Positions 14,715 to 29,693 of a DNA stretch of 38,069 nt are shown here, in pieces. The notes below the pieces were generated by a model. That model worked only from the letters and a program-made list of their open reading frames with translations. It did no database searches and had not been told where the DNA came from. How positions within the stretch are numbered: the first letter of the stretch is position 1; every line of letters begins with the position of its first letter. Origin of the DNA: Curtobacterium sp. B18 (lineage in GTDB: Bacteria > Actinomycetota > Actinomycetes > Actinomycetales > Microbacteriaceae); assembly GCF_000333375.1 (NCBI RefSeq), contig NZ_BACZ01000536.1, positions 1 through 38,069 of the forward strand. The letters are read 5' to 3'. Position numbers and translations under genes: made by a program.

Positions 14715-15191
14715 TCAGGGTGCGGTGTCCGGCTCCGTCTCGACGGGGCCGATCGCGTCGTCGACGCGAGCACTGACGGACCGCAGCGTGTCCGCATCGG
14801 TCCCCACGGGCCTCCAGAACAGCTCCTCGAGCGCACCGGTGTGCGCACGGATCCCGGCGAGCACCGCCCTGCGGCCGACCGGGGTCATCTCCACCCAGCT
14901 GCCCCGTCCGTCGGTGGGACAGTCCGCACGCTCGACCAGCCCGCGCGCGACCATGCGCGTGACCTGGTGGCTGACGCGCGACTTCTCCCAGCCGATGCCG
15001 GCCGCGATGTCCCGGACCCGGAGCCGGTGGTCCGGCTCGCGCTGCAGCCCGATGAGGATCTCGAACTCGGGGATCGAGATCCCGGCACCGTGCTGCACGG
15101 CCTGGTCGAGTGCCCGGTCGAGTCGCCGCCAGACGTCGTGGTAGGCGTCCCACGTGGCCCAGTCGTGGCCTTCGGCGCCCTCGATCGACAT
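14715..15191 (-). CDS. MarR-family transcriptional regulator
   Basis: A 158-residue winged helix-turn-helix regulator. The dimerisation helices flank a DNA-binding core: EFEILIGLQREPDHRLRVRDIA, recognition-helix region GWEKSRVSHQVTRMVARGLV, and wing ERADCPTDGRGSWVEMTPVGR. Members usually repress by binding short palindromes and release on ligand binding. The gene is divergent from putA, and a 16-bp palindrome (15232-15247) lies between them, so it probably controls itself and proline catabolism. The ATG at 15191 has TACGCT exactly 6 nt upstream (15198-15203), a leaderless arrangement. Confidence 0.92.
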   Translation of the reverse strand: MSIEGAEGHDWATWDAYHDVWRRLDRALDQAVQHGAGISIPEFEILIGLQREPDHRLRVRDIAAGIGWEKSRVSHQVTRMVARGLVERADCPTDGRGSWVEMTPVGRRAVLAGIRAHTGALEELFWRPVGTDADTLRSVSARVDDAIGPVETEPDTAP

Positions 15192-15197
15192 GGCGCC

Positions 15198-15203
15198 AGC
15201 GTA
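15198..15203 (-). promoter_or_regulatory. -10-like hexamer TACGCT of the marR-type gene
   Basis: TACGCT on the minus strand, 6 nt before the ATG at 15191. It fits TANNNT and predicts a leaderless transcript. Confidence 0.5.
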
Positions 15204-15231
15204 TCGACCTCGACACGGTTCGACGGCATGA

Positions 15232-15247
15232 TCATCCGCTCGGATGA
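15232..15247. promoter_or_regulatory. Candidate MarR operator palindrome
   Basis: TCATCCG and CGGATGA separated by CT form a 16-bp inverted repeat. It lies 40 bp upstream of the regulator start and 61 bp upstream of the putA start, just upstream of both predicted -10 hexamers' -35 zones. Size and symmetry are typical of MarR sites. Confidence 0.55.
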
Positions 15248-15296
15248 CTCGCCGCCGGCACACGGCTCGCTCCGAGGTGGGGTCGGTGGCGCAGCA

Positions 15297-15302
15297 TACG
15301 AT
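15297..15302 (+). promoter_or_regulatory. -10-like hexamer TACGAT of putA
   Basis: TACGAT lies exactly 6 nt before the putA ATG at 15309, predicting a leaderless transcript. No separate ribosome site at normal spacing is visible. Confidence 0.55.
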
Positions 15303-15308
15303 CGGAGC

Positions 15309-18300
15309 ATGCCGAGCGCCCGACTGCAGGACTGCACCGACGACGCCGTCGCCCTCGTGCGCCGCTGGCTCGCGGCGTCGGCGGGGACGAAGCCCGACGC
15401 CGGTGCCGTGCGCCTGTCCGAGGCCCTGCGGGACGGACAGGGGCTCGACTTCACCCGCGGTCTGGTCGACAAGGTCGTCCGTCCCGAGGACCCCCGCGTG
15501 GTGGCGCGCAACCTCGAGAAGGTCAGCCAGGACGTCCCCGACTTCCTCTCCTGGTCCCTGCGCGGCGCGGTGACCTTCGGCGGAGGGTTCGCCACGATGG
15601 CGCCGTGGGCGGTTGCCCCGACCGCGCGGCGGATCCTGCGGCGGATGGCCGGGCACCTCGTGGTCGACGCGCCCGACGCGAAGCTCGGCGCGGCGCTCGC
15701 GAAGGTCGGCGGCCCCGGTGTGCGCCTCGACGTGCGCCTGCTCGGCGACGCGGTCCTCGGCACCGCGGAGAGCGACCGACGGCTGCAGGGGACGATGGAC
15801 CTGCTGGCCCGTGACGAGGTCGACCAGGTGTCGATCGGCGTGCGTTCGGTCGTGCCGCAGCTGTCCCCGTGGGCCTTCGACCAGACCGTCGAACGGGTGG
15901 TGGACCGCCTGGTGCCGCTGTACCGCCTCGCCGCGGGGTCGCCGGTGGCGAAGTCCGTGACACTCGACGCCGAGGACCACCGCGACCTCGACGTCACCCT
16001 CGCCGCCTTCCGCACCCTGCTCGACCGCGACGAGTTCCTCGGGCTCGAAGCCGGGATCGTGCTGCAGGCGTACCTGCCCGACACCGCCGGCGCCCTCGAG
16101 TCCCTGACCGCCTGGGCCCAGCAGCGACGTGCCCGCGGCGGCGCACCGATCACGGTCCGGCTCGTCAAGGGGGCGTCCCTCGCCACGGAGCGGGTCGACG
16201 CGGTCCTGCACGGGTGGCCCCTCGCCACGTGGGGCTCGAAGGTCGAGACCGACACCGCGTACCTCCGGCTGCTCGATGCCGCGCTCACGCCGGAGCGTAT
16301 CGACGCGGTCCGGATCGGCGTCGCGAGCCACAACCTCTTCACGCTCGCGACGGCGTGGACCCTCGCCGGTCGCCGCGGGGTCACCGACGGCGTGCACGTC
16401 GCGGTGCTGCTCGGGATGGCCTCAGGCCACCTCGACGCCGTCCGCGCCGACGTCGGTCCGGTGCTGCTCGCCGCGCCGGTCGTGCACCCCGACCACTTCG
16501 ACTCGGCGATCCCGTACCTCGCCCGGCGGCTGCAGGAGAGCGCCAGCGGTGACGGCTTCGTCGCCGGCGCCGCCGACATCGGCCACGACGAGCGCGTCTT
16601 CGAGCGCGAACGCGGCCGGTGGCTCGCGGCGGTCACGGCCCTCGACGCAACGGATCCGGTGCCGGCCACCCACCGGACGCAGGACCGCCGCGCCCCGATC
16701 GGCGAACCCGTGCACCGGGACGCCTTCGCGAACGCGCCGGACACCGATCCGTCGACCGCGGCCAACCGTGCGTGGGCGACGGACGTGCTCCGCCGCGTAC
16801 CGCGGTCGAAGCTCGGCGCCCAGACCATCCGCGGTGCGAGGGTCGCCGACCGCTCGAAGCTCGAGCGCATCGTCGCCCGGACCGCGCAGGCCGGCGTGAA
16901 CTGGGGACGACAGGACCCGTCCGACCGCGCCGAGCTCCTCGACCTCATCGCGCACGAGCTCGAGACGCGGCGTGCGGACCTCGTCGAGGTGGCAGCGGCG
17001 GAGACGGGGCATGACCCTCGCCGAGGCCGACTCCGACGTGAGCGCCGCGATCGACTCCGCCCACCACGCCGCCGACAGCGCCCGGCGGCTGGCCGTGCTC
17101 GACGGCGACGGCGCCCGGTACGTGCCGCCCCGGCTCACCGTGGTGGTGTCGTCGTGGAGCGCCCCGGTCGCGAACCCGGCCGCGGGCGTGGTCGCCGCCC
17201 TCGCCGCCGGCAGCGGGGTCGTCCTGCAGCCCGCGCCCGAGGCCGAGCGGTCCGGCGCGGTGCTCGCCGACGTCCTCTGGGACGCCGGGGTGCCGCACTC
17301 CCTGCTCCAGCTCGTCGACCTCGACGACGACCAGCTCCGCCGTGACCTCATCGCGCACCCGACGGTCGACCGGATCGTCCTGACCGGGTCGGCGGAGACC
17401 GCTCGATCGTTCCGCTGGTGGCGGGCCGGGCTGCCGCTCACCGCCGAGACGAGCGGGCGGAACGCGATCGTCGTCACGCCGAGCGCCGACCTCGACCTCG
17501 CCGTGCAGGACGTCGTCCGGTCGGCCTTCGGACGCGCCGGACAGCAGCGCTCGGCGTGCTCGCTCGTGGTCCTCGTCGGGTCCGTCGGCGACAGCGAACG
17601 GTTCCGTCGGCAGCTCGTCGACGCAACCCGCACCCTGCGCGTCGCCTGGCCGGACGACCCGTCCGCGCAGATGGGGCCGCTCATCGCCGAACCCGAGGGC
17701 ACGGTGCGCGCCGGGTTGACCGAGCTCGCGCCGGGGGAGTCCTGGCTCGTGCAGCCCGTCCCGCTCGACGACTCCGGACGACTGTGGTCGCCGGGCATCC
17801 GCGACGGCGTGCGCCCGGGCAGCGACTTCCACCGGACCGAACACCTCGGGCCGGTGCTCGGCGTCATGCGCGCCGAGACCCTCGACCAGGCCGTCGCGAT
17901 CCAGAACGACACGGACCACGGTCTCGCCGCCGGCATCCACTCCCTCGACCCCGACGAGGTCGCGGACTGGATCGCCGGGGTCCGCGCCGGCAACCTGTTC
18001 GTCAACCGCGGCACCACCGGTGCGGTCGTCGGCCGGCAGCCGTTCGGCGGGTGGAAGCGCTCGTCCGTCGGCACCGGCACGAAGCCGGGCGGACCGATGG
18101 ACGTCGCGACGCTCGGACGGTGGGAACCGACGCCCCGCACCGTCCACAAGAGCATCCAGCTGCACGGCCTGCCGCCGCGGGTCACGGCCGTCATCGAGGC
18201 CGCCCGCAGCGGGCTGTCCTTCGAGGAGTTCGACCAGGTCCGCGCGGGTGCGCTCAGCGACGTCCGTGCCCGCGAGTCCGAGTTCGGCGTGACGCACGAC

Positions 18301-26916: not shown

Positions 26917-27909
26917 TCACACCGCCCAGCGCGCCGCCAGCTCGTCCATCAGCCCGTCGAGCCGCTCGTCGACCACCTGCTCCTCCGGGTGCGCCTCGTA
27001 CCAGGCGATGACCTCGCGGACACCCTGCCGGTACGGGATCCTCGGCCGGTACCAGGGCACGAGCGACCGGACCTTGCTGTTGTCGAAGACCGACGAGTTC
27101 GCCTTGTCGCCGAGGAGCGCCGCACCCCACTCCGGGTCCACGGCGTTGATGGCATCAGCCGGCACGTGCACGATCCGCAGGTCGTCCACCCCCGCGGCCG
27201 CCGCGATCTCGTGCGCGATGGCGTTCCAGGTCGGCGCCTCGTCGCTCGTGATGGTGAACGGCTCCCCGATCGCCGAGGAGTTGTCGAGCAGCCCCGTGAA
27301 CCCGACCGCGAAGTCCCGGCTGTGCGTGAGGGTCCACAGCGACGAGCCGTCACCGGTGATGATGATCGGCTTGCCGGCACGCATCCGCGCGACGGCGGTC
27401 CACCCGCCCGTGAGGGGCAGCTTGGTCTCGTCGTAGGTGTGCGACGGTCGGATGATCGTGACCGGGAAGTCCTGCTCGCGGTAGGCGGCCATCAGCAGCT
27501 CCTCGCACGCGATCTTGTCCCGCGAGTACTGCCAGTACGGGTTCTTCAGCGGCGTCGACTCGGTGATCGGCAGGTGCGTCGCCGGGGTCTGGTACGCCGA
27601 GGCCGACGAGATGAACACGTACTGCCTGGTCCGCCCGGCGAAGAACTCGACGTCGGCCTGCACCTGGTCCGGCGTGAAGGCGATCCAGTTCACGACGACG
27701 TCCCAGTGGCGGTCGCCGACCGCGTCCGCCAGGGCGCTCCGGTCCGAGACGTCGGCCTGGAGGCGCGTCACACCCTCCGGGATCGGCCTGCCCCCGGTGG
27801 TCCCCCGGTTGAGCACGGTGACGTCGAACCCCTGCTCGGCGGCTTCGCGGACACAGGAGGCACTGATCACCCCGCTGCCGCCGATGAACAGCACGCTCGC
27901 TCCCGACAT
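26917..27909 (-). CDS. NAD-dependent epimerase/dehydratase family protein
   Basis: A 330-residue extended SDR. The Rossmann loop is FIGGSGVISASCV at residues 7-19; the NAD-side strand VTVLNRGTTGG follows; VVVNWIAFTPDQV and FISSASAYQ precede the catalytic YWQYSRDKIACEE (YxxxK). The C-terminal part (TITSDEAPTWNAIAHEIAAA, VPWYRPRIPYRQGVREVIAW) matches sugar-nucleotide epimerase and isoflavone-reductase-like relatives. Substrate unknown. ATG 27909 has AAGGAG 6-8 nt upstream. It follows the broken Abi gene by 57 bp on the same strand. Confidence 0.88.
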   Translation of the reverse strand: MSGASVLFIGGSGVISASCVREAAEQGFDVTVLNRGTTGGRPIPEGVTRLQADVSDRSALADAVGDRHWDVVVNWIAFTPDQVQADVEFFAGRTRQYVFISSASAYQTPATHLPITESTPLKNPYWQYSRDKIACEELLMAAYREQDFPVTIIRPSHTYDETKLPLTGGWTAVARMRAGKPIIITGDGSSLWTLTHSRDFAVGFTGLLDNSSAIGEPFTITSDEAPTWNAIAHEIAAAAGVDDLRIVHVPADAINAVDPEWGAALLGDKANSSVFDNSKVRSLVPWYRPRIPYRQGVREVIAWYEAHPEEQVVDERLDGLMDELAARWAV

Positions 27910-27966
27910 GGACGCTCCTTCGCTCCCGGCGGCACCGCTGCGTGCCGCACTCCCTCGATCCTGCAC

Positions 27967-28478
27967 CTACCCGTCAGGGCGGGCGCGGAGCACGGCTCGG
28001 AGCGAGGTGGTGTCCCGTGCCCAGGATTCCGCGTGCGGGCTGATCCAGCCGAGCAGTTCGAGCGCGTAGTCGTGGTCCCGCTGCAGGTCACGCGCGTGGA
28101 TCGGTTCGTGGTGCGCAGCGCGGTTCCGCACGAAGTGCAGTTGCTGCAGTCGCCGACGCACCTCCCGTTGTCGCGTCAAGGAGTCCGCGGGTCCGTGCGG
28201 GAACCCCCGGTGGAGCGCTGGTGTCCACAGCGCGGTCAAGTACCGCGACTCGACGAGGTACCGCCAGAACCCGAAGCCGAGCTCGGCGATGACGCGCCCG
28301 TGCACTTCGCCGCGACGGCCGTCGCGACTCGCCCGAGCCCGGTGAGCTCCATCACCGATGCCGCGGCTCGCATGTTCCACTCGTAGAGCCGCAACGCCGC
28401 GGTCGTGGACCGTGTTCGTTCGGCGTACGAACGGAGCCGCTCGGCCGTGATCAAGCGCTCGACTTCGCTTTCCAGCAT
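27967..28478 (-). pseudogene. Abi-family (AbiF/Abi_2-like) HEPN ribonuclease, broken by internal deletion/frameshift
   Basis: Two frames make one recognisable Abi-like protein. From ATG 28478 (GGGAAG just upstream) frame one encodes the N-terminal part: VERLITAERLRSYAERTRST, LRLYEWNMRAAASVMELTG. Near 28336-28344 homology jumps to another frame: ASRDGRRGEVHGRVIAELGF, GFWRYLVESRYLTALWTP, then HFVRNRAAHHEP and LELLGWISP to the stop at 27967. RNRAAH (28111-28128) is the HEPN RNase motif Rx4H. The span is 512 nt, not divisible by three. Intact relatives, as I recall them, have about 45-50 more residues at the junction, so a deletion is inferred. These are phage-defence or toxin proteins. A structured RNA lies just upstream. 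Confidence 0.72.
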
Positions 28479-28503
28479 CACTTCCCTGTCTGCTACCGTG
28501 GAT

Positions 28504-28556
28504 GACGAAGACCCCGGAACGATCACTGGCCCAGGCCACATCGCCGGGGTTTCGTC
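28504..28556 (-). ncRNA. Structured RNA upstream of the Abi/HEPN gene
   Basis: On the minus strand GACGAAACCCCGG (28556-28544) pairs with CCGGGGTCTTCGTC (28517-28504), one bulged base. Inside, CGAT (28543-28540) pairs ATCG (28523-28520), and TGGC pairs GCCA around a CTGG loop. The result is a nearly continuous hairpin of about 53 nt, 25 nt before the Abi start. A TACGCT -10 at 28582-28587 would start transcription about 20 nt before it. Rfam describes abiF RNAs next to Abi_2 genes; similarity here is by position and size and has not been tested. It could also be a leader hairpin. Confidence 0.6.
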
Positions 28557-28581
28557 TTTCCCCCGCCGCTCCTGAAACATC

Positions 28582-28591
28582 AGCGTACAGT
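28582..28591. promoter_or_regulatory. Overlapping divergent -10 hexamers
   Basis: AGCGTACAGT contains TACGCT on the minus strand (28587-28582, toward the RNA and Abi gene) and TACAGT on the plus strand (28586-28591, toward the aldo/keto reductase). The two share the TA pair at 28586-28587, so firing of one would block the other. No good -35 elements are obvious. Confidence 0.4.
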
Positions 28592-28673: not shown

Positions 28674-29684
28674 ATGGAGTACCGCTACCTCGGCAACTCG
28701 GGCCTCAAGGTCTCCGAGATCACCTACGGCAACTGGCTCACCCACGCCTCCCAGGTCGAGAACGACGCCGCGATCGCCTGCGTCCGGGCAGCGCTCGACG
28801 TCGGCATCTCGACGTTCGACACCGCCGACGTGTACGCCAACACCGGCGCCGAGACCGTCCTCGGCGAGGCGCTGAAGGGGGAGCGGCGCCAGTCCCTCGA
28901 GATCGCCACGAAGGTGTTCGGGCCGACCGGACCCAAGGGGCACAACGACACCGGCCTCAGCCGCAAGCACATCCTCGAGTCGATCAACGGCTCGCTCGAG
29001 CGACTGCAGACCGACTACGTCGACCTCTACCAGGCGCACCGCTTCGACTACGAGACGCCGCTCGAGGAGACGATGATGGCGTTCGCGGACGTCGTCCGCC
29101 AGGGCAAGGCGCTCTACATCGGCGTGAGCGAGTGGACCGCCGAGCAGCTCCGTGCGGGGCACGAGCTCGCCGACGACCTCGGCGTCCAGCTCATCTCGAA
29201 CCAGCCGCAGTACTCGGCACTCTGGCGCGTCATCGAGGGCGAGGTCGTCCCGACGTCCGAGGAGCTCGGGATCTCGCAGATCGTCTGGTCGCCGATCGCG
29301 CAGGGTGTCCTGACCGGCAAGTACCAGCCCGGCCAGCCGCTGCCGGAGGGGTCACGCGCCACCGACGACAAGGGCGGCGCGAAGATGATCGAGCGGTTCA
29401 TGCGCGACGAGGTGCTCTCGGCCGTCCAGGAGCTCGGGCCGATCGCCGACGAGCTGAACCTGTCCATGGCGCAGCTCGCGGTCGCCTGGGTGCTGCAGAA
29501 CGAGAACGTGGCGTCCGCGATCATCGGCGCCTCGCGTCCGGAGCAGGTGCACGACAACGCCGGCGCGGCCGGGGTGACGATCCCCGAGGAGCTGCTGTCG
29601 CGCATCGACGACGCCCTCGGTTCGGTCATCGAGCGTGACCCGGCGAAGACCGAGGACAGCAGCCCGAAGACCCGCGAGGCCTAG
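28674..29684 (+). CDS. Aldo/keto reductase (Kv-beta-like)
   Basis: A 336-residue NADPH-dependent aldo/keto reductase with a TIM barrel. Catalytic tetrad in view: Asp49 and Tyr54 in FDTADVYAN, Lys80 in IATKVFG, and His in YQAHRFDY. NADPH-binding elements GVSEWTAEQL, SNQPQYSALWR, WSPIAQGVLTGKY and IIGASRPEQVHDN are the pattern of the AKR6/Kv-beta-like and general-stress YhdN group. The last 15 residues are charged. ATG 28674 has AGGAG 10 nt upstream, and a -10 hexamer at 28586 predicts a leader of about 75 nt. Natural substrate unknown. A large hairpin follows immediately. Confidence 0.92.
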   Translation: MEYRYLGNSGLKVSEITYGNWLTHASQVENDAAIACVRAALDVGISTFDTADVYANTGAETVLGEALKGERRQSLEIATKVFGPTGPKGHNDTGLSRKHILESINGSLERLQTDYVDLYQAHRFDYETPLEETMMAFADVVRQGKALYIGVSEWTAEQLRAGHELADDLGVQLISNQPQYSALWRVIEGEVVPTSEELGISQIVWSPIAQGVLTGKYQPGQPLPEGSRATDDKGGAKMIERFMRDEVLSAVQELGPIADELNLSMAQLAVAWVLQNENVASAIIGASRPEQVHDNAGAAGVTIPEELLSRIDDALGSVIERDPAKTEDSSPKTREA

Positions 29685-29693
29685 CCGCCCGTC

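Follow-up and report, generated by a model that had tools for sequence, protein, structure and literature searches.

The hairpin at positions 28504-28556 of the window, i.e., the whole 38,069-nucleotide stretch of Curtobacterium sp. B18 DNA analyzed here, is probably an antitoxin-like RNA, belonging to a toxin module of the HEPN-RNase kind with AbiF and PD-T4-5 as relatives, and it stands solitary in this stretch, where the toxin gene is broken. Comparison of homologous sequences demonstrates a conserved RNA of predicted structure, which carries a conserved promoter-like box and is tied to a HEPN RNase-like gene. The relevant features of the window are the following.

28504-28556, plus strand (minus strand in a preliminary description of the window): the hairpin, from its sequence and predicted fold
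28507-28563, plus strand: predicted small RNA of about 57 nt, with putative ends, the start being placed from the -10 box
28512-28549, plus strand: conserved core CCCCGG AA CGAU CAC UGGC..GCCA C AUCG CCGGGG, from covariation
28550-28559, plus strand: conserved U-rich 3' flank UUUCGUCUUU, from the alignment; no call in a strict terminator scan
28494-28499, plus strand: TACCGT, putative -10 box of the RNA, 18 nt before CCCC; no clear -35 box in the window copy
28582-28587, minus strand: TACGCT, -10-like box for the HEPN mRNA, the leader of which would cross the hairpin
28326-28478, minus strand: 5' fragment of the HEPN gene, corresponding to residues 1-51 of an intact relative
27970-28365, minus strand: 3' fragment of the HEPN gene, corresponding to residues 82-214 in another frame, with RNRAAH (Rx4H)
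28674-29684, plus strand: aldo/keto reductase gene, a flank conserved in the genus
26917-27966, minus strand: NAD-dependent epimerase-like gene, the other flank conserved in the genus

Fold, conservation and coding strand of the RNA

The minus-strand sequence that the preliminary description gave for the hairpin is confirmed, and folding reproduces the structure proposed there, with 13 pairs and one bulge, followed by CGAU/AUCG and then by UGGC/GCCA with a tetraloop. The folding energy is -34.4 kcal/mol on the plus strand (z -4.34; 0 of 200 shuffles equally good) and -35.1 kcal/mol on the minus strand (z -2.55; 4 of 200 shuffles). The exceptional strength of the stem had been put forward as an argument for a stable RNA; we reject this argument, since 532 of 12,670 60-nt segments on the plus strand, and 938 on the minus strand, fold at least as well as the best segment containing the hairpin. 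The raw stability of the hairpin is ordinary for such a GC-rich window, and conservation is what goes beyond chance. By raw energy, the most stable hairpins in the window lie at 29686, 33187 and 26830, with about -46 to -54 kcal/mol.

The window and 43 homologous actinobacterial loci supplied 45 hairpins for an almost gapless alignment (A1). In A1, 8 of 16 pairs are doubly changed, with 25 such cells, where shuffles give 6.4 and slid controls no more than 4. The core CCCCGG..CCGGGG, the CGAT/ATCG pairing and the apical stem are kept across copies, and the outermost GACGAA/TTCGTC stem is found in the window copy and only a few others of A1. Fourteen Bacteroidota hairpins (alignment A2) share the same architecture, written in other letters. 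Their covariation is weaker than that of A1, with 3 of 12 pairs doubly changed and 5 cells versus 1.1 in shuffles, and the count of further pair types is not above shuffles. A covariance model, R1, built from 43 actinobacterial sequences only, recovers 13 of the 14 Bacteroidota hairpins in the right place and on the right strand, with E-values from 6e-5 (best) to 0.28 (weakest).

In the genome collection, 112 stretches encode a HEPN relative, and the best 80 of these 112 were kept; they are mostly actinomycetotal, with 14 from Bacteroidota and three from Rhodobacterales or relatives. At E<=1, R1 matches upstream of the gene and on the opposite strand in 69 of the 80 loci, 41 of which supplied the model and 28 of which did not, some of the latter being close relatives. 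Ten loci are without an R1 match at this threshold (L059, L070, L072, L073, L080, L082, L087, L093, L097 and L101); in three of them (L080, L082 and L101) a hairpin is visible by eye despite the missing match. In one further locus, L083, the match is present but not upstream of the gene. Similar hairpins also occur in Rhodobacterales. As judged from these comparisons, it is the same RNA, on the same side of the gene, that accompanies the HEPN family in Actinomycetota and Bacteroidota.

A search of 394 genomes of the class with the RNA gave matches at E<=0.01 in 74, many of them weak. Among the matches of at least 37.7 bits, 18 of 19 adjoin a HEPN gene, one of the 18 being the window itself with its broken gene, and a single one (L294) does not. 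Among the fetched loci below 37.7 bits, 4 of 14 have a HEPN gene, and several resemble ordinary terminators. Wherever an examined class match is accompanied by a HEPN gene, the RNA lies on the opposite strand (22 of 22). Independent copies across Actinobacteria, which the preliminary description had suggested looking for, are found by both RNA and homologue searches, and the picture that it named as contrary to its reading, a generic terminator downstream of unrelated genes, is not what the matches of at least 37.7 bits present, nearly all of them adjoining the same gene family. Two cellular genomes have the RNA with no HEPN gene nearby, namely L294 (43.8 bits) and L139/L179:3052-3116; a T-rich tail lies 3' of the L179 copy.

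Rfam searches of the window at E<=5 yield no abiF match (RF03085, membership score 37 bits), and in 20 homologous loci no Rfam family matches the RNA at its gathering score. RF03085 is likewise without a match in the homologous locus L103 at E<=5 and in the window's own genome at E<=1. A weak match of the window to the fluoride riboswitch (12.8 bits, cut-off 34) was rejected. Two other genomes of the genus carry true Rfam abiF RNAs (L112 and L113; 47-48 bits), which are unlike the window RNA in structure, and in L113 an ATG reading frame follows the abiF RNA on the same strand. As predicted from these comparisons, the hairpin belongs to a conserved RNA gene tied to a HEPN module, which is new to Rfam as a family and has a divergent arrangement new in the literature searched.

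The RNA is predicted to be encoded on the plus strand, just upstream of the minus-strand HEPN gene and divergent from it. When the stem mismatches are read on the gene strand, the 813 core cells contain 15 A-C/C-A cells and no G-U (L088 and L094, the MAFFT alignment of which is one column off, are left out); since A-C cells of the gene strand become G-U wobbles on the other strand, the count argues for an RNA on the plus strand. R1 matches the window at 28501-28564 of the plus strand with 85.1 bits versus 21.8 bits on the minus strand, the window row itself being part of the model and the model being built on the plus strand. After removal of near-duplicates, which reduced 69 copies to 48, a plus-strand TAnnnT -10 box is found 17-19 nt before the hairpin CCCC in 43 of the 48 copies. 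Thirty-six of 44 counts fall at exactly -18, and the best three-position bin in 1000 letter shuffles reaches at most 9. TTGACA is often present upstream of this box. For the window copy, a promoter scan of the plus strand called no 9/12 promoter. The Bacteroidota hairpins have, on the same side as the plus-strand signal, a TAnnTTTG motif (G in 13 of 14), which we take to be the Bacteroidota -7 box, together with a T-rich tail of consensus TTTCGTTTTTT. In L183 and L296, which form a paralogue group, RNA and gene share one strand, and L183 keeps the same -10 spacing, arguing that the strand of the RNA is set by the RNA and not by the gene.

A minus-strand RNA is rejected by the wobble, promoter and T-tail evidence. 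The proposal of a stable RNA rather than a terminator stands as regards a conserved RNA element, and is to be corrected as regards the strand. Similarly, the remark that the hairpin lacks a T tract is correct for the minus strand, whereas directly 3' of the hairpin on the plus strand lies TTTCGTCTTT, where a strict terminator scan makes no call. The TACGCT hexamer reported 26-31 nt upstream on the minus strand is indeed there, although it more likely serves the HEPN mRNA than the hairpin RNA. In 13 of 48 copies (at most 6 in shuffles), a gene-strand TAnnnT precedes the hairpin by 36-38 nt, and TACGCT is most likely part of this weaker signal, i.e., a putative toxin promoter driving the HEPN mRNA in the other direction. 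As the two facing -10 boxes flank the hairpin, the RNA and the HEPN transcripts would overlap across it.

The HEPN gene and its co-occurrence with the RNA

The two fragments of the window HEPN gene encode residues 1-51 and 82-214 in different frames, so that about 30 codons are missing and the gene is broken. The C-terminal fragment carries RNRAAHHEP with the Rx4H motif; RNRxAH, the HEPN Rx4-6H motif, is invariant in all 20 aligned proteins. The broken window protein itself matches only HEPN_Swt1, below the cut-off. Of 59 genomes searched, 26, the window's own among them, have homologues. Eight of eight homologues match PADLOC PD-T4-5, which is the top match in seven (AbiD comes first for L021), and three of the eight (L103, L082 and L021) match Abi_2 (PF07751) above its cut-off of 25.6 bits, the other five more weakly. 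An AlphaFold model of the closest intact relative has a pLDDT of 94.1, and its best PDB match in Foldseek is 8vz6, "PbAbiF dimer bound to ncRNA" (probability 1.00, TMq 0.61), a likeness that consists of one structural match at E 0.022. A PDB sequence search gives marginal matches only (8vz6, E 0.087). By its motif and its relatives, the window gene is a putative HEPN RNase of the Abi_2/PD-T4-5-like kind, broken here.

Across the genus, the RNA (at least 60 bits) is present in 40 of 66 genomes, and an intact gene, defined as a nearly full-length match of at least 250 bits, in 19 of 66, one of these 19 having one TGA inside. All 19 genomes with an intact gene have the RNA. Conversely, none of the 26 genomes lacking the RNA has an intact gene, and none of them has a match above 74 bits. 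Among the 40 genomes with the RNA, 21 are without an intact gene: 12 of these have remnants, some very short, and nine have no detectable trace of the gene beside the RNA. In these 66 genomes of the genus, the RNA is often found without the gene and the intact gene never without the RNA, which is the pattern predicted by an antitoxin.

Thirty loci were read in detail, of which 17 have intact and 13 broken or absent genes. The mean pairwise identity of the hairpin is 0.936 in the 13 loci with broken or absent genes versus 0.934 in those with intact genes, the copies having been found by the RNA model and a hairpin pattern, with a bias towards conserved ones. In the 13 loci, identity is 0.68 over the 10 nt before the hairpin, 0.85 over the 11 nt after it and 0.28-0.54 in the outer flanks. 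Besides the window, 36 genus loci were examined: the reductase flanks the RNA in every one, and the epimerase, or a part of it, lies on its other side in all except L173. Where the RNA is retained without the gene, recent loss of the gene may be part of the reason.

Several loci hold additional elements. The genus contains a second HEPN paralogue (L020, L022, L030 and L031) with its own upstream hairpin, GCCCCAGGA..TCCTGGGGC. A small actinobacterial genome has three HEPN genes, two of them in tandem (L178:1828-2622 and 15156-16785), with doubled hairpins before two of the three. In nine loci (L044, L047, L048, L067, L068, L069, L071, L076 and L077), a second hairpin, very stable and about 60 nt long, closely precedes the RNA region and lies about 200 nt ahead of the N-terminal motif of the gene; its long stem varies, and it has small inner hairpins like GCGCCCGAAGGGC.

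Related hairpins on plasmids and copies in viruses

The protein family is widespread on plasmids, with tblastn matches of two homologues in 470 and 882 plasmid records. Five of eight plasmid regions read (L184, L185, L186, L190 and L191, from gammaproteobacteria and Zymomonas) have, on the strand opposite the PD-T4-5-like gene, a common hairpin of other sequence with the motif TCCCCC(C/T)G(A/T)(G/A)GACA, preceded by -10-like boxes and followed by a terminator-like hairpin. R1 has no match at the hairpin place of these five regions, and in L185 the fold is not above shuffles (z -0.55). The alignment of this gammaproteobacterial type has six rows, too few for a covariation claim. Two other plasmid regions, L188 and L189, carry the Rhodobacterales and Bacteroidota hairpin types, and the eighth, L187, shows no clear type.

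A 17-base pattern of the RNA 5' arm has matches in 57 virus contigs, in 15 of which R1 scores at least 33 bits. The Bacteroidota pattern adds one virus contig, L249 (19.2 bits). A viral R1 match in L291 is chance-like (27.8 bits) and was rejected. The following virus contigs have the RNA and no HEPN match.

L192:504-614, minus strand
L199, L200, L208, L232 and L240, one phage group (5 of the 16 contigs)
L202
L204
L211
L212
L216
L218
L233
L245
L247
L249

In these 16 records fetched by RNA pattern, which are fragments of 4-81 kb, no HEPN match was found at E<=0.1; in the L202 record, the side on which the gene would be expected extends over 92 nt only. The gene lies beside none of the 14 viral copies of at least 38 bits, all in RNA-fetched fragments, versus 18 of the 19 cellular class matches of at least 37.7 bits. 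A less simple picture comes from a protein search, which showed HEPN relatives to be encoded in 40 virus contigs; of these, 22 were searched with R1, and 5 of the 22 have the RNA upstream on the opposite strand. The RNA is present in all 17 virus records searched whole, i.e., the 16 and L250, which was fetched by protein and has a HEPN match with one stop inside. No match was found by blastn of the window RNA in named phages or plasmids, nor by blastn of a gammaproteobacterial RNA and of a viral copy in phages.

Comparison of ten proteins, taken from 7 of the 16 contigs, with PHROGs gave phage-type genes in all seven: L200 has an endolysin and a RecE-like exonuclease close to the RNA, L202, L212 and L233 have a terminase, L204 has a major head protein, L216 an exonuclease and L247 a weak sigma-factor match. 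Neighboring gene-like frames mostly run in the direction of the RNA (L199, L200, L208, L232, L240 and L245), though not all do in L216, and a tRNA gene directly precedes the RNA in L202 and L233. Eight viral copies, four of them nearly identical, and the cellular L126 keep 144 of 144 pair cells; in the same nine rows 5 of 16 pairs are doubly changed, where shuffles give 1.5 and slid controls no more than 2, the structure being drawn from those same rows. In L192, a gammaproteobacterial-type hairpin lies directly before the actinobacterial-type RNA, with two tRNA genes on the same strand. This first hairpin was recognized by sequence (a 17-base motif present in 2 virus contigs), and its fold is not above shuffles (z 0.23).

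A region of the lactococcal phage sk1 reportedly protects from AbiF. We see an even chance that actinobacterial phages carry stand-alone, structurally maintained, toxin-free copies of the RNA, within gene runs or beside tRNA genes, as counter-defense. The two hairpin types that stand in tandem near tRNA genes in L192 would then form a small array of decoys, directed at several HEPN toxins.

Alternative explanations and known systems

In the mechanism that we favor, the RNA would be transcribed from its own plus-strand promoter, starting at the foot of the hairpin and ending in a U-rich 3' end. On the model of AbiF, it would use the bulged hairpin or internal loop to bind the HEPN dimer and keep the RNase inactive, and phage infection, by stopping the supply of the RNA, would release the RNase. 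Transcription of the HEPN mRNA would come from the opposite side and cross the same hairpin, so that the RNA might also damp toxin synthesis as an antisense transcript.

Such an antisense effect may add to protein binding, but accounts neither for the same-strand paralogues nor for retention without the gene. It is improbable that the RNA acts only in this way, regulating the HEPN mRNA in a type I-like manner, by cis-antisense action or transcription interference, and never binding the protein. The two facing -10 boxes and the overlapping transcripts that they would produce fit this explanation; however, structure and sequence are conserved far beyond the needs of antisense pairing, the RNA persists where the gene is gone, and in the paralogue group with the RNA on the gene's strand it cannot be antisense. 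Slightly less probable again is a role in directing or activating the HEPN RNase, as a guide or cofactor resembling a pre-CRISPR Cas13 RNA. Such a role would be in line with the relationship to AbiF, which two papers (PMC12737573, PMC12373285) present as the ancestor of Cas13, yet the near flanks on both sides of the hairpin are short and conserved, with no evident variable segment of the guide kind, and the genus distribution, in which no intact gene is seen without the RNA, is that expected of an antitoxin. A leader attenuator or intrinsic terminator of the HEPN mRNA or of a neighboring gene, suggested by the GC-rich hairpin with its plus-strand T-rich stretch and by weak R1 matches that resemble ordinary terminators (L142-L144), is very unlikely given the promoter-like box at a fixed distance before the hairpin, the conservation of stem and internal-loop sequence across phyla and the absence of a call at the hairpin in the strict terminator scan.

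With an antitoxin-like RNA as the preferred reading, a large and little-noticed HEPN protein group, with matches in hundreds of plasmid records, gains a likely RNA partner that is absent from Rfam and arranged unlike that of AbiF, which bears on how PD-T4-5-like proteins are kept silent. If the phage copies are decoys, natural RNA antitoxins would form a class of counter-defense beyond the ToxIN case, and would help in predicting which phages beat which Abi systems.

Among known systems, the module resembles AbiF with AbiFr/RCd22 (RF03085) in that a putative Abi_2-like HEPN RNase, with a fold match to PbAbiF, adjoins a small bulged hairpin RNA. In C. difficile, RCd22 neutralizes AbiF through direct RNA-protein contact, according to the accessible part of PMC12373285, and bulge nucleotides of AbiFr inhibit PbAbiF, as summarized in the available section of a review (PMC12737573). 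Unlike the AbiF RNA, the window RNA does not match RF03085 and has another stem and loop sequence. RCd22 is co-transcribed with abiF, whereas the window-type RNA is usually on the opposite strand, with a putative promoter of its own. PD-T4-5, the PADLOC top match of seven of eight intact homologues, is in the excerpt consulted a plasmid-borne distant relative of AbiF/D acting in abortive defense (PMC9519451); that excerpt mentions no RNA partner, in contrast to the conserved RNA here.

As in type III toxin-antitoxin systems such as ToxIN, a candidate RNA antitoxin would oppose an RNase. In contrast to ToxIN, the toxin here is of the HEPN kind, the hairpins are single or doubled instead of forming repeat arrays, and the arrangement is usually divergent. 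The type III layout, with tandem repeats and a terminator before a co-transcribed toxin, is not that of the window, which has a single divergent hairpin, and doubled hairpins occur only in some loci (L178 and L075). Phage PhiTE escapes ToxIN by antitoxin-like RNA repeats, termed pseudo-ToxI, as far as the available text of PMC3475682 describes it, and on that description pseudo-ToxI is the closest precedent for the phage-borne RNA copies.
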